From NCBI RefSeq assembly GCF_000388115.1, contig NZ_AQGQ01000004.1:1-64000 (forward strand): a stretch of 64,000 nt of DNA. The letters are read 5' to 3'. The position numbers and the translations under genes are program-made. A model generated the notes under the pieces. It searched no databases. It worked only from the letters and a program-made list of their open reading frames with translations, and was not told where the DNA came from. Position 1 is the stretch's first letter. Each line of letters opens with the position of its first letter. This DNA is from Aeromonas molluscorum 848 (lineage in GTDB: Bacteria > Pseudomonadota > Gammaproteobacteria > Enterobacterales > Aeromonadaceae). This document shows positions 15,841-46,710 of this stretch, piece after piece.

Positions 15841-16130
15841 GGGATCTCTCTTGCGGCCTGGTTCTTCGTCGGTATGACCGACAACAAGCAGGTAATGAAA
15901 AATAGATGCGTTTGCAATCAGGGCAAAATTTTATCCGCAACCTCCGCCGACTTCCAGTGTGATTGTCATCACAAGGTCAAATCCATGGCGCAGAGTCGAC
16001 TCTGGTTAGCTATTTTTAGCGTGGCCGTCGGTGGCGCCAGCGGCAAACTTATGATATAAAGCGCGCCGGAACTGGAACTACTTGTCCCAGTTTCATCACC
16101 CTAATCAATAACACACACACATCGATACCT
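15841..16130 (+). promoter_or_regulatory. map-rpsB divergent region with the rpsB promoter
   Basis: The gap between the divergent starts of map and rpsB. ATGATATAAAGCGCGCC at 16051-16067 carries a good -10 (TATGAT at 16050-16055 or TATAAA at 16055-16060) followed by a GC-rich discriminator, typical of ribosomal-protein promoters under ppGpp control. No strong -35 is visible. The rest up to map has no recognised element. Confidence 0.5.
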
Positions 16131-16201
16131 GTACCGGGGTGCCCCTTTGGGGTCGGTTACATGGGATGTGTGGAGGCCTAACCCCAATACAGAGGTATAA
16201 A
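16131..16201 (+). ncRNA. rpsB 5' leader with a likely S2 autoregulation structure
   Basis: The leader directly before rpsB contains TTGGGGT (16147-16153) exactly complementary to ACCCCAA (16181-16187), with GGTTA (16155-16159) able to pair with TAACC (16179-16183) as an alternative. A small GC hairpin (CCCC TTT GGGG) precedes it. Autogenous control of rpsB-tsf by ribosomal protein S2 through a conserved leader is known in gammaproteobacteria. Assigning this structure to that role is inference from position and pairing. Confidence 0.55.
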
Positions 16202-42017: not shown

Positions 42018-43745
42018 TCAGTGGAGACCGAGCCGCTCGGCGATCAGGGATAGCTCGTCGCGCCAGCTCTGTTGCAGCCGTGGGGTCTGGTGCCTGGGCT
42101 TGCGGGCAAGATCGGCGGCGAGCAAGCCATCCAGTTCGTACCAGCGTATCAGCATGGCCTCATCATCGTGCTCCGGCATGAGCTCTTCTCTCCTGGCGTC
42201 ATTGACCCGGAAGCCAGCTGCGGGCCGTTCGGGGGCATCGCCGAGCAGCTCGACATAGGCCCGCTCGGCGCTGTGGGCTTCGTGGATCCGGCCCTCCCTG
42301 ATCACCCAGAAACGGTTGCAGCTGCGCTCGATCAGATCCCGGTCGTGGGAGACAAGCAATACGCCGCCGGCAAAGCCGGTCAGCGCCTCGGCCAGCTCCT
42401 CCTTGCCTGCCAGATCCAGATGGTTGGTGGGCTCATCGAGCCAGAGCAGATGGTGGCTCGCCAGGGAGAGGGCGAGGAACAGCAGTCTGGCCCGCTCCCC
42501 CCCGCTCAAGCCATGCACTCGCTGGCCGTGACGGGAATAGGGGAAACCCGCCCGGATCAAGGCCTGGCGCAGCGTTACCTCCGGCAAAGGCGCCAGGGGA
42601 TAGAGGGCATCGGTCAGGGTAGCGTCGTCGTCCAGCTGCTGCAGGGACTGATCGTAGTAGGCGATGCTGGCGCCGGGGTGGCGATACCAGCCCTCAGCCG
42701 GCAGTTGGTCGGACAGCTCGCCCCAGCACTGGCGAAGCAGGGAGGATTTGCCCGTGCCATTAGCGCCAAGCAGGGCGACTCTGTCGCCGGCGCGCAGCCA
42801 GAGATCCTCGGCCCGCAACAGCGGCGGCAAGCCGGGGGCGGGGCGCACGTCGAGGGCGTCGAGCCGCAGCAGGGCATCGGCGGGCAGGGCCTGGCCGTGC
42901 AGTTCGAGGCGCCAGGAGGCATCCGCCCCGACCACGCTCTGCTCCTCCTGCAGTCTGGCCACCCGTTTCTCCATGGATTTCGCCTGGCGCACCAGCTTCT
43001 CGTTGTCATGCTCCCGTCCCCAGATGGCGAGGCGCTTGCTGCTGGCGCTCAGGCGGTCGATCTCTTTTTGCTCATCCATCCGGCGCAGGCGGGCCTGCTC
43101 ATCCTCTTCGGCCAGGGCTGCCCTCGCCTGGCTGCAGGGCAGGGCGAAGCGATAGAGGCGTCGATCCCGCAGAACCAGGGTATCCCGGGTCACCCGATCG
43201 AGCAGGCGCCCATCGTGGGAGACCAGCACGAAGGCGCCGCGCCACGCCAGCAGGAAGCGCTCCAGCCAGAGCAGGGCGGGCAAGTCCAGGTGGTTGCTGG
43301 GTTCGTCCAACAGCAACAGGTTGGGCTGGTGCAGCAGGGCGCGGCCAATCTGCAAACGGGTGTGCTGGCCACCGCTCAGGGCGCTGACCGGGAGGTCGGC
43401 TTGCTCGGCCAGTTGCAGCTCGGTCAACATCTTGTCCACCTGCCACCCTTGGTCGGCTTCGTTGTCCAGGGCATCGAACAGCACGGCGCGGGTACTGAGC
43501 GTTTGCAGTTGCAAAGGCAGATGCTGGGCCACGAATTCACAGCGGCAGTGGGTGGCCTTGTGTATGCGTCCGTCATGGGGTTGACGCTGACCGGCCAGCA
43601 GGGCGAGCAGTGTGCTCTTGCCACAGCCATTGGCACCGATGAGGCCAATGCGATCACCGCTGCGGATGCTCAGGTCCAGGTTGTCAAATAACGGAAGATG
43701 CCCCGCACTCATTTGCAGGGAATGGGTACTCATCAGGGTTGTCAT
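42018..43745 (-). CDS. ABC-F family ATP-binding protein
   Basis: A 575-residue protein with two ABC domains and no membrane part, the ABC-F layout. First domain: Walker A GANGCGKST, signature LSGGQHTRL, Walker B LLLLDEPSNHLDL. Second domain: GANGTGKSS, LSGGERARL, LLWLDEPTNHLDL. A charged helical linker (about residues 205-275) joins them, the region that reaches the ribosome in this family. ABC-F proteins act on ribosomes as translation factors or antibiotic-protection proteins. It is not one of the universal four that I can name. A leader peptide upstream suggests ribosome-sensing control. Confidence 0.88.
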   Translation of the reverse strand: MTTLMSTHSLQMSAGHLPLFDNLDLSIRSGDRIGLIGANGCGKSTLLALLAGQRQPHDGRIHKATHCRCEFVAQHLPLQLQTLSTRAVLFDALDNEADQGWQVDKMLTELQLAEQADLPVSALSGGQHTRLQIGRALLHQPNLLLLDEPSNHLDLPALLWLERFLLAWRGAFVLVSHDGRLLDRVTRDTLVLRDRRLYRFALPCSQARAALAEEDEQARLRRMDEQKEIDRLSASSKRLAIWGREHDNEKLVRQAKSMEKRVARLQEEQSVVGADASWRLELHGQALPADALLRLDALDVRPAPGLPPLLRAEDLWLRAGDRVALLGANGTGKSSLLRQCWGELSDQLPAEGWYRHPGASIAYYDQSLQQLDDDATLTDALYPLAPLPEVTLRQALIRAGFPYSRHGQRVHGLSGGERARLLFLALSLASHHLLWLDEPTNHLDLAGKEELAEALTGFAGGVLLVSHDRDLIERSCNRFWVIREGRIHEAHSAERAYVELLGDAPERPAAGFRVNDARREELMPEHDDEAMLIRWYELDGLLAADLARKPRHQTPRLQQSWRDELSLIAERLGLH

Positions 43746-43888
43746 GCTCTTGCTCTCTCAAATCTCGGGATCAGAAATCCCTGTCATCAGGAGCGCTGGC
43801 AACAACGGTCGAGAAAGGTCTCGGTTGGGAAGGGAGTCGGCTTTGCTCGAACCCGCTATCGCAGCGCGATGGTATGCAGGCAAGAGCA
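43743..43888 (-). promoter_or_regulatory. Long-range pairing that could mask the ABC-F start codon
   Basis: In minus-strand RNA, UGCUCUUGC inside the leader ORF (43888-43880) is exactly complementary to GCAAGAGCA (43753-43745), whose last A is the first base of the ABC-F start codon. The nine-base pairing would hide the ABC-F ribosome-binding region, and ribosomes on the leader ORF would open it. A small hairpin (GGGAT TTCTG ATCCC) lies between. This is the layout of translational attenuation; function is inferred. Confidence 0.45.
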
Positions 43889-43942
43889 CGGGAATGTGCC
43901 GAACAGGCGGGCCGAGAACATCGGACACGCTTGGATAACCAT
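43856..43942 (-). CDS. 28-residue putative leader peptide of the ABC-F gene
   Basis: ATG 43942 is preceded by a perfect AAGGAGGT (43955-43948) five bases away, the strongest ribosome-binding site in this part of the window. The frame runs 28 codons to TAG at 43858-43856. The peptide begins MVIQACPMFSARLFG and later has CSCLH. It lies about 34 bases after a good promoter and about 110 bases before the ABC-F start. Small, well-translated ORFs in this position precede many antibiotic-responsive ABC-F genes. No known leader sequence is matched. Confidence 0.6.
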   Translation of the reverse strand: MVIQACPMFSARLFGTFPCSCLHTIALR

Positions 43943-43981
43943 TTTTTACCTCCTTGTGTTGTGTTATGGCACTGTGCGGCG

Positions 43982-44010
43982 ATTATAAGCGCAGAGAAAA
44001 TGAGCGTCCA
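43982..44010 (-). promoter_or_regulatory. Sigma-70 promoter for the ABC-F leader
   Basis: A perfect TATAAT (43987-43982) lies 17 bases from TGGACG (44010-44005), four of six matches to the -35 consensus. Transcription would start near 43976, giving a 34-base untranslated stretch before the leader peptide. The rest of the gap up to pliI (44011-44125) shows nothing further. Confidence 0.65.
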
Positions 44011-44125: not shown

Positions 44126-44563
44126 TTAATCCCTGGGGGTTTTAAGTGCCTGGATTACATCATCGTTTGGAGCCAATCCCTCCACATGGTTGAAGAGGTC
44201 GAGCCCCTCCTGCGGATTGATGATGAAGGCATTGGCACTGAGGTAGCTGCCGCTGCCGACACTCTCCATGATGACGATGAGTTCGGGCTGCTTGTCACCA
44301 TTGAGATCCTGCAACTTGAGGTCCTTGATGCTGCCATCGCGGGGCAATACCTTGCCGTCGATGAACTGATCCAGCGGGAACTGGGGGTTGGCGCCGGAGT
44401 AGAGGCGCACGTCGTAGCTGCCGGTGGAGGCGGGTTCGCCGCGTCCCTCGTTGACGGTGATCAGCTGACCTGAGGGCAGTGTCAGTTGCTTGAAAAAAAC
44501 CTCCGCCGCCTGGCCGGCCAGTGGCAGGCTAAGCAGGCCGAGTGTCATGAGCAAGGTTTTCAT
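44126..44563 (-). CDS. pliI: Periplasmic i-type lysozyme inhibitor PliI
   Basis: A 145-residue periplasmic protein with a signal peptide ending in GQAA. It carries the SGxY-type inhibitory loop: Ser104 and Tyr107 in VGSGSYLSANAF, the two residues known to enter the lysozyme active site in PliI of A. hydrophila. A DLNGDKQPELIVI segment precedes it. It blocks invertebrate-type lysozymes, as met in molluscs and other hosts. ATG 44563 is chosen for its signal peptide. It lies 116 bases after pepO on the same strand, with two hairpins in the gap. Confidence 0.88.
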   Translation of the reverse strand: MKTLLMTLGLLSLPLAGQAAEVFFKQLTLPSGQLITVNEGRGEPASTGSYDVRLYSGANPQFPLDQFIDGKVLPRDGSIKDLKLQDLNGDKQPELIVIMESVGSGSYLSANAFIINPQEGLDLFNHVEGLAPNDDVIQALKTPRD

Positions 44564-44586
44564 CGATTTGACCCTTTTGACTGCGC

Positions 44587-44679: not shown

Positions 44680-46710
44680 TCACCAGATCTTGACTCGCTT
44701 GGCCGGGTCCAGATAGAGCTTGTCACTCTGCTCTATCTTGAACGCCTCATAGAAGGCGGGAATGTTGGGTACCACGCCATTGACCCTGTATTCGGGCGGG
44801 GAGTGGGGATCCGAACTCAGCAGCATCTGCATCAGCTCGGGGCGATACTTGCCCTTCCACACCTGGGCCCAGCCGAGGAAGAAGCGCTGCTCACCGGTAA
44901 AGCCATCGAGTACGGGGGCCTCCTTGCCACCCTGCGACAGCAGGTAGGCCTTGTGGGCTATGGTGAGGCCGCCCAGATCGCCGATGTTTTCCCCCAGGGT
45001 GAACTGGCCGTTGACGAACTGACCCGCGATGGGTTCGAAGCGGTTGTATTGAGCAACCAACCGGCTGGTGCGGAACCTGAACTCCTTGAGATCGGTCGGG
45101 GTCCACCAGTCGCGCAACACGCCGTCCCCATCGGATTTGGCGCCCTGATCATCGAAACCATGGCCCATTTCGTGGCCGATGACGCCGCCGATGGCGCCAT
45201 AGTTGACCGCATCATCGGCGTTGAGATCGAAGAAGGGGGGCTGCAGTATGGCGGCAGGGAACACGATCTCGTTGTTGCTGGGGTTGTAGTAGGCGTTCAC
45301 CGTCTGGGGCGACATATACCAGCGATCCTTGTCGACCGGAGTGCCAAGGCGCGACAGGCTATCTTGATACTCGAAAGCCTGGGCTCGCAGCAGGTTGCCG
45401 ATCAGATCGTCGGGTTCGACCCGGATGGCACTGTAGTCCCGCCACTTGTCCGGGTAGCCAATCTTGGGTCTGAACTTGGCGAGCTTCTCCTTGGCTTGCG
45501 CCTTGGTGGCTGGCGACATCCAGTCGAGGGTATCGATGCTCTGGCCATAGGCGATGCGCAGGTTCTCGACCAGCTGCTCCATGCGGGCCTTGGCTTCGGG
45601 GGGGAAGTATTGCGCCACATACCGCTTGCCGACGGCCTCGCCCAGATGGGCATCAAGTACCGCCAGAGCTCGCTCCCAGGCGGCGCGCTGCTTGGGAGTA
45701 CCGCTCAGGACGGTGCCGAAGAAGGCGAAGTTGGCCTGGTCGGTCCCACTGTCGAGGTAGGGGGCGTAGTCGCTGATGAGTTGCCACTTCAGGTAGTTGC
45801 GCCACTGGGCTGCCGGGGTCTGCACCATCAGTGTATCCAGAGCTTGCAGGTAGCTGGGTTGGCCCAGGATCAGCGTCGGCTGATTGGCGATGCCCGCCTC
45901 ATTGAGATAGCTCTGCCAGTCGATATGGGGAGCGAGGCGGCTGAGGTCGCCGGTGGCGACTTTGTTGTAACTCTTCTCCCTGTCCCGCAGTGCGACCTTG
46001 TCCCACTGGATGCGGGCGATGGCGGTTTCAAGGGCCAGTATCTGCTTGGCTTTGCCTTGGGCATCGGGTTCACCGGCCCGGGTCAGCATGCCGGCGATGT
46101 GTTGCTGGTATTGCTGGCGCAGGTGCACGCTGGCGTCATCGTTCTTGAGGTAGTAGTCCCTGTCCGGCAGGCCGAGGCCGGACTGACCGATGTTGACGCT
46201 GTACCGGGTTGGCGCCTTGGCATCCGGCCCTATCCAGAAACCGAAGGGGGCGCTGCCGCCAACCTTGCCTGTTCGCGCCAGGGCCTGGGCCAGTGTGCGG
46301 CTATCCGTTACCTGATCCAACTCGGCGAGCAGGGGGCGAAGCGGGCTCAGGCCCTTGGCATCACGGCCGCTCTTGTCCAGGTAACTGGCGTAGAAATCAC
46401 GGATCTGCTGGGCTTCCGACCCCTGGGGGGCGTCTTTGGGCAGCGCTTCTATCAGGGCGCGAACATCGGCAAGCGACTTGTCGCGCAGGGTATAGAAAGC
46501 GCCGTCGGCGGGTCTGTCATCGGGGATCTTGGCGCTGGCGAGCCAATGGCCGTTGGCATAGCGGAAAAAATCGTCGCCGGGTTTTACGCTGGTATCCATG
46601 TTGGCCAAAGTCAGCCCTGAGTGGGCCTGATCCTGGGCAGGCCCCTGGCTGCAACCTGCCAGCAGAGCCAAGCCGATCAATCCGGCCAGTATGCTTTTTT
46701 TGTTGTGCAT
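44680..46710 (-). CDS. pepO: M13 family zinc metallopeptidase PepO (neprilysin-like)
   Basis: A 676-residue lipoprotein with lipobox ALLAGCSQ (Cys20), so membrane-anchored and facing the periplasm or cell surface. The zinc motif HEMGH is at residues 513-517 and the third ligand lies in GENIGDLGG. The VNAYYNPSNNEIVFPA strand and the C-terminal RVNGVVPNIPAFYEAF are typical of M13 peptidases. It should cleave short peptides. It is upstream of pliI on the same strand and divergent from tilS. Confidence 0.93.
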   Translation of the reverse strand: MHNKKSILAGLIGLALLAGCSQGPAQDQAHSGLTLANMDTSVKPGDDFFRYANGHWLASAKIPDDRPADGAFYTLRDKSLADVRALIEALPKDAPQGSEAQQIRDFYASYLDKSGRDAKGLSPLRPLLAELDQVTDSRTLAQALARTGKVGGSAPFGFWIGPDAKAPTRYSVNIGQSGLGLPDRDYYLKNDDASVHLRQQYQQHIAGMLTRAGEPDAQGKAKQILALETAIARIQWDKVALRDREKSYNKVATGDLSRLAPHIDWQSYLNEAGIANQPTLILGQPSYLQALDTLMVQTPAAQWRNYLKWQLISDYAPYLDSGTDQANFAFFGTVLSGTPKQRAAWERALAVLDAHLGEAVGKRYVAQYFPPEAKARMEQLVENLRIAYGQSIDTLDWMSPATKAQAKEKLAKFRPKIGYPDKWRDYSAIRVEPDDLIGNLLRAQAFEYQDSLSRLGTPVDKDRWYMSPQTVNAYYNPSNNEIVFPAAILQPPFFDLNADDAVNYGAIGGVIGHEMGHGFDDQGAKSDGDGVLRDWWTPTDLKEFRFRTSRLVAQYNRFEPIAGQFVNGQFTLGENIGDLGGLTIAHKAYLLSQGGKEAPVLDGFTGEQRFFLGWAQVWKGKYRPELMQMLLSSDPHSPPEYRVNGVVPNIPAFYEAFKIEQSDKLYLDPAKRVKIW

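Follow-up and report, generated by a model that had tools for sequence, protein, structure and literature searches.

A conserved leader ORF and competing RNA pairings upstream of a proteobacterial ABC-F gene point to translational attenuation

The locus and its ABC-F protein

The stretch of DNA analyzed here – hereafter the window – comprises 64,000 nucleotides of Aeromonas molluscorum 848 (contig NZ_AQGQ01000004.1, positions 1 to 64,000). On its minus strand, an ORF with domain matches (42018..43745) encodes a 575 amino acid ABC-F ATPase with two ABC domains. Upstream of this gene and on the same strand lie a sigma-70-like promoter (TGGACG-17-TATAAT, 43982..44010) with 10 of 12 consensus matches, a leader Shine-Dalgarno sequence (AAGGAGGT, 43948..43955), and a 28-codon leader ORF (MVIQACPMFSARLFGTFPCSCLHTIALR, 43856..43942) recognized from the ORF list and from relatives. 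A promoter scan of the window found one site against a mean of 0.6 in shuffles, which alone is not significant; 20 of 24 Aeromonas loci share the pattern T(A/G)GACG-N16-18-TATAAT, and 22 of the 24 have TATAAT. Upstream of the promoter is a match to PliI, a periplasmic inhibitor of I-type lysozyme (44126-44566, minus strand), and a PepO-like M13 peptidase gene (44680-46710) lies after the PliI-like gene.

Within the leader, nine bases that we call segment 1 (TGCTCTTGC, 43888-43880) are complementary to GCAAGAGCA (43753-43745), a degree of complementarity reached in 11 of 2000 dinucleotide shuffles. The latter stretch, segment 5, consists of GCAAGAGC plus the A of the ABC-F ATG (43745..43753) and was assigned as a partner of segment 1 from duplex energies. 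A preliminary description of this DNA had claimed that a promoter, a leader ORF with a strong Shine-Dalgarno sequence, and a nine-base complementarity occur in this order, and that the last paired base is the A of the ABC-F start codon; we confirmed the full arrangement on the minus strand, with that A at 43745.

Pairing comparisons indicate that segment 1 (43880..43888) has an alternative partner, segment 2 (CGGGTTCGAGC, 43845..43855). Segment 2 can also form part of a longer helix identified by covariation, H23, whose 5' arm comprises the last leader codons, the stop codon, and segment 2 (43834..43867) and whose 3' arm is segment 3 (43793..43823), with its near-invariant GTTGTYGCCAGCGC. The pairings of leader with post-leader, of leader end and stop codon with intergenic region, and of leader with ABC-F start thus share segments and are mutually exclusive. 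Another hairpin (GGGAT-TTCTG-ATCCC, 43767..43781) lies upstream of the ABC-F start, and relatives show this hairpin in other letters.

Annotation models and structural comparisons place the protein among ABC-Fs of mixed roles. The best NCBIfam model was ribo_prot_ABC_F (307.5 bits, below its cut-off of 380), and the Vga, Msr, Lsa, and OptrA resistance models scored far under their cut-offs. Among solved chains, sequence similarity is closest to YheS, which is not a resistance factor, and to ABCF1 and Uup, with VmlR2 (8buu) next. A structure search with the AlphaFold model (pLDDT 83.1, pTM 0.69) ranked VmlR2 first by E-value and gave higher TM-scores to ABCF1 and Arb1; its matches range from VmlR2 and PoxtA to ABCF1, Uup, and YbiT. 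Because resistance and housekeeping proteins are mixed among these matches, the fold does not decide the role of this ABC-F.

The gene is patchily distributed. At E ≤ 1e-150 it occurs in 23 of the 37 genus genomes, and 41 of 345 genomes of the order carry it, with named Aeromonas orthologs up to 93% identical; a class-wide protein search at E ≤ 1e-100 returned 1 of 369, the window's own genome, and no further ortholog. Judged from the genera that carry it rather than from a tree, the protein probably belongs to the PAF1 subfamily. Passages of PMC6723617 predict PAF1 to be a resistance subfamily on account of its patchy presence and report it in Vibrio, Enterobacter, Klebsiella, Serratia, and Citrobacter, and not in Escherichia. 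The ABC-F studied here resembles those proteins in being proteobacterial and patchy (23 of 37 genus genomes), with relatives in Klebsiella and Vibrio; it differs in its leader, which those passages of PMC6723617 do not mention. The Klebsiella locus had no megablast-level match in 5,426 E. coli genomes. This ABC-F is a probable ribosome-protecting protein.

The leader ORF and RNA element in relatives

We collected 79 upstream regions: the window, five further genomes of the genus, 36 loci from named genomes, six from a plasmid collection (6 of 40 records used, some of them chromosome-sized), and 31 from other genomes. These loci are non-independent samples and include several near-copies. A leader of 26-31 codons with a strong Shine-Dalgarno sequence is present in 75 of the 79 regions, upstream of related ABC-F genes in Aeromonas, Chromobacterium, Burkholderia, Klebsiella, Vibrio, Rahnella, Proteus, and others – the conservation in relatives on which the preliminary description had made its reading depend. 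A filter for 24-30 codons behind a Shine-Dalgarno sequence retained 74 of these regions; L110, with 31 codons, failed it and was added by eye. The 75 leaders have 28 (46 leaders), 27 (17), 26 (10), 29 (1), or 31 (1) codons. Their frame is open in every case and AGGAGG stands ahead of 74 of them, whereas AGGA, GGAG, or GAGG at the usual place before the ABC-F start was found in none of the 75 (L089, whose ABC-F start is mis-set, among them).

Two candidate explanations were rejected on the basis of this set. The gap from leader stop to ABC-F ATG is 97-138 nt in all 75 regions, which we judged too long for reinitiation from the leader stop. An attenuator responding to amino acid starvation was discarded because the Aeromonas leader's Cys codons are not conserved outside that genus.

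Four regions were left uncounted: L088 (genome G638), where the gene start is mis-set and the RNA is present just before the gene, and L101-L103, which are without the leader and whose proteins are only 37-39% identical. No similar leader was found at L067-L069, which encode distant proteins of the L067-L070 group. Upstream of the distant ABC-F genes of G722 and G688, L102 and L103 contain a different ORF of 22 codons with AGGAGG, MKLSQLAFARYLSNLR(P/I)QSAVN; its ARYLS resembles the arrest motif proposed below, but lies 9, not 13, residues from the end. L109 and L110, from the Burkholderiales sample, have leaders of 29 and 31 codons that are strongly diverged and retain an F-S/F-G step and an ..ALR end. 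In addition, 18 IMG/VR provirus contigs (L150-L166 and L169) carry the ABC-F and leader, 17 of them as near-copies and mostly near a contig end; these copies are probably host flanks. Comparing the window with Chromobacterium/Burkholderia loci, intergenic identity (87, 79, and 77%) exceeds coding identity (72, 67, and 68%), whereas against Klebsiella the intergenic region is not more alike (64% versus 66%).

To survey the RNA itself, we used a covariance model (R1) that spans the end of the leader and the intergenic half and was built from many of the sequences that it later matched. R1 matched 38 of 340 genomes of the order, at a single place each, and 37 of the 38 matches (E ≤ 2e-9) lie directly upstream of this ABC-F by coordinates. 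The 38th (G665, E 0.009) was considered as a second locus and rejected as a weak chance match in a genome without the ABC-F protein; the gene downstream of it is presumably argS. This search of 340 genomes found the same RNA before no other genes, and the window genome holds one R1 copy despite its other ABC-F-like genes. Four of the 41 genomes of the order with the protein have no listed RNA match. Three of these are the distant G673, G688, and G722; the fourth is G724, whose locus L090 does carry the element and which was probably not drawn into the RNA search. Protein and RNA also coincide in Burkholderiales, where the same 5 of 300 genomes have both, and in a sample of the phylum R1 matched 6 of 297 genomes, all in the window's order.

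Among 4227 Rfam models none reached its gathering score at this RNA, and the lax matches (E 0.64 and 2.5) were to animal RNAs; the sole gathering-score match in the window is a t44 RNA (RF00127, 80.2 bits) at 16094-16182 on the plus strand. A search of open-access literature – titles and the starts of abstracts, with few subscription journals and no preprints – returned no description of this leader, nor of any leader of a PAF1-like Gram-negative ABC-F. The RNA and leader family is new; the type of mechanism proposed for it is already known.

Competing pairings and selection on the leader

H23 was evaluated in an alignment (A5) of 45 sequences, drawn from 60 loci after 13 were left out by name and L107 was lost; the structures tested here were derived from the same sequences as were used for testing. 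In this alignment 94.1% of cells pair, 8 of 17 pairs show two-sided changes, and 0 of 500 shuffles reach H23 on any of five measures. Within 26 enteric and Vibrio sequences, two-sided changes occur in 7 of 23 pairs, a level reached by 1 of 500 shuffles, while the measure of further pair types is at chance level (346 of 500). Two loci are instructive for this helix: L110 has a TGA stop with matching downstream bases, and in L098 Gln replaces the last Arg of the leader together with ATTGC/GCAAT. A small hairpin at IALR-stop (ATCGC-GCT-GCGAT, 43858..43870) is an alternative to H23, and the L098 bases match in this hairpin as well.

The other pairings were more variable in their support. In the 26 enteric/Vibrio sequences, pairing of segments 1 and 2 occupies 96.2% of cells with a covariation score above 500 of 500 shuffles, pairing of segments 1 and 5 occupies 95.1% with covariation not beyond shuffles, and pairing of segments 3 and 5 occupies 82.7% with no covariation beyond shuffles. 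Since MAFFT misaligns segment 5 between lineages, we judged the 1:5 pairing across lineages by duplex energies and used alignment columns within the enteric/Vibrio set alone. Identical intergenic regions were counted once, leaving 71 sequences for duplex energies and 71 for the opening energies described below; the opening-energy set holds L089 and not L110, and the duplex set the reverse, L089 having been excluded from the duplex comparison and from the ribosome-position scan for its mis-set start. Matched 1:5 partners form duplexes with a mean of -15.4 kcal/mol, compared with -11.6 kcal/mol for swapped partners. Aeromonas segment 1 with enteric segment 5 reaches -7.6 kcal/mol, weaker than its own shuffles (-9.5), and L109 has a wholly different but complementary pair, GCGCTTACC/GGTAAGCGC, at -18.0 kcal/mol. 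The pairing is weak in L076 (-6.6 kcal/mol) and L110 (-7.8 kcal/mol). The pairing of leader with ABC-F start highlighted by the preliminary description therefore stands as lineage-matched complementarity, but not as covariation within the enteric/Vibrio sequences; the nine-base pair is real, but it is one among several competing pairings, of which H23 is better supported by the sequence comparisons.

Two parts of the leader peptide are conserved in different ways. Counting from the leader end, codons -15 and -14 encode F/Y/L then G/S together in 50 of 57 distinct peptides, fixed 13 residues from the end; they close the proposed arrest motif (ARLFG in the window; codons 11-15, or -18 to -14 from the end; 43898..43912). 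Among 23 spread leaders these two codons combine high pS (0.75 and 0.66) with low pN (0.27 and 0.32). Codons -19 to -14 have a pN/pS of 0.54 overall (Aeromonas 0.07, Burkholderia/Chromobacterium 0.42, enterics/Vibrio 0.65), against 0.9-1.1 in most other leader segments. Codons -15 and -14 thus look selected as amino acids, modestly so in enterics/Vibrio. Ser -9 bears the same amino-acid-type signature (pS 0.50, pN 0.08), and its position within the paired core of segment 1 makes peptide and RNA causes inseparable there. The leader end behaves otherwise: Arg is final in 56 of 57 distinct peptides and Leu-Arg in 54, and the last four codons vary little at either synonymous or non-synonymous sites (pS 0.10, pN 0.11; pN/pS 1.09 overall), as expected from RNA constraint. 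On the conserved IALR end, selection seems to act mainly at the RNA level.

We then calculated how ribosome position would affect opening of the ABC-F start, scanning 39 of the 71 sequences with a ribosome footprint of -15 to +16, for which one codon either way is possible. The mean opening energy is 9.7 kcal/mol with no ribosome, 9.4 with the P-site at codon -16, 8.6 at -15, 6.7 at -14, 7.5 at -13/-12, 6.2-6.4 at -11 to -9, 8.5 at -8, and 10.2-10.4 at the leader end. Opening starts at -14 and the energy is lowest at -11 to -9; in enterics/Vibrio it stays low to about -4. From the drop at -14, the modelled start begins to open where the amino-acid-constrained step occupies the P-site. Masking segment 1 reduces the calculated opening energy by 1 kcal/mol or more in 48 of 71 sequences; the other 23 fall short of this, and in 13 of these the start becomes more closed, and the mean change in Burkholderia/Chromobacterium is small (10.5 to 9.3 kcal/mol). 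A ribosome at the leader stop lowers the energy by at least 1 kcal/mol in 11 of 71.

These results bear on an alternative that places the arrest sequence in IALR-stop itself, as in TnaC or MsrDL, and has the RNA controlled by a ribosome waiting at the stop codon. The near-fixed Leu-Arg end and the fixed spacing from the F-G step to the stop would suit such an arrest, and MsrDL arrests at its own stop codon in the account given in passages of PMC10314930. We nevertheless consider this explanation unlikely, as the low rates at both kinds of site and the matching base change that accompanies Arg to Gln in L098 are what RNA constraint would produce, and a ribosome at the leader end does not open the start in the model.

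A proposed attenuation mechanism and its alternatives

We propose that the locus encodes an ermC-type translational attenuator in which leader arrest at about codon -14 frees the ABC-F start. Taken as a whole, we regard this statement as likely. Its basis is comparative – conservation of the leader, the pairings, amino acid selection on the motif, and selection on the bases of segment 1 and of the leader end – and from it we infer leader translation and arrest, an inducer, and resistance. The ermC attenuator follows a four-segment scheme. Two features expected of an erm-type system are recognizable here: a putatively translatable leader ORF with a Shine-Dalgarno sequence lies upstream in 75 of 79 regions, and exclusive pairings carry compensating changes for 1:2 and H23, between lineages only for 1:5, and not for 3:5. 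The translational attenuation favored by the preliminary description is accordingly supported in its core by leader conservation and pairings, as far as sequence comparison reaches.

In the proposed OFF state, the ABC-F ribosome-binding region would be held in one of two ways: by segment 1, in a 1:5 pairing that encloses H23, or by segment 3, with segments 1 and 2 paired to each other. Induction would occur when a ribosome arrests at the F/Y/L-G/S step, with about leader codon -14 in its P-site, covering segment 1. The last leader codons, the stop codon, and segment 2 would then pair with segment 3, and with H23 formed segment 5 would be released and the ABC-F translated. The cause of arrest would most likely be a ribosome-targeting compound that this ABC-F counters.

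Transcription attenuation is a further alternative, in which the folds govern intrinsic or Rho-dependent termination between leader and ABC-F. It has precedent in the VmlR and MsrD leaders, which act in this way according to passages of PMC9226507 and PMC10314930, and one weak terminator-like site is present at 43792-43779. A terminator scan of the window, however, gave 4 sites against 2.2 (sd 1.4) expected, which is near chance; in the relatives inspected, the sequence downstream of the hairpin that precedes the start is rich in A rather than T; and the ABC-F start codon is where the covarying or lineage-matched segments end. We therefore judge termination control improbable. A small protein with a function of its own, encoded by the short ORF and accompanied by incidental RNA pairs, is very unlikely: the open frame with its strong Shine-Dalgarno sequence in 75 of 75 leaders and the amino-acid-level constraint on the motif would suit such a protein, but pN/pS is near 1 outside the motif over all lineages and the pairings covary. 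We likewise give little credence to a riboswitch or other non-ribosomal sensor for which the leader ORF merely keeps the RNA open, a reading that draws on the near-invariance of intergenic bases but leaves the fixed spacing of the leader motif unexplained, while pairing with the leader end accounts for the near-invariant block.

The proposed translational attenuator has partial counterparts among characterized systems. As in ermC/ermB, with the ErmBL attenuator model as described in passages of PMC11264731, a short leader ORF precedes competing hairpins that share a segment, and the start would be freed by a ribosome in the leader; unlike in those passages, the controlled gene encodes an ABC-F rather than a methyltransferase, the loci are on Gram-negative chromosomes, the peptide is different, and the ON helix draws one of its arms from the last leader codons and stop codon. 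The Bacillus subtilis VmlR leader also combines a chromosomal ABC-F gene with a leader ORF and competing folds, including a hairpin that sequesters the Shine-Dalgarno sequence, but the passages of PMC9226507 describe a three-codon ORF and an intrinsic terminator, in contrast to the 26-31 codons and lack of a convincing terminator here. Streptococcal MsrDL-MsrD shares the principle that leader peptide arrest governs an ABC-F gene, and differs, in the passages of PMC10314930, in its MYLIFM peptide, stop-codon arrest, and transcription attenuation. Likened by description, the E. coli topAI-yjhQ uORF is another Gram-negative uORF sensing ribosome-targeting antibiotics, although it controls a toxin-antitoxin transcript (PMC12121999).

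More tentatively, these loci may represent a widespread undescribed family of drug-sensing attenuators in beta- and gammaproteobacteria, in which an A/S-R/H-x-F/Y/L-G/S arrest motif senses a natural inhibitor of translation and the switching helix takes one of its strands from the leader's final codons and stop codon. Maintenance of the leader across several proteobacterial families points to a real, old natural inducer. The ABC-F leaders described in the consulted portions of the papers compared here are Gram-positive, and for annotation these loci would provide a new RNA family as well as a new arrest motif. The leader could also serve as bait, as a compound that stalls it would reveal what the orphan ABC-F protects against. 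If the proposal is true, this ABC-F would be an overlooked inducible resistance factor of Gram-negatives.
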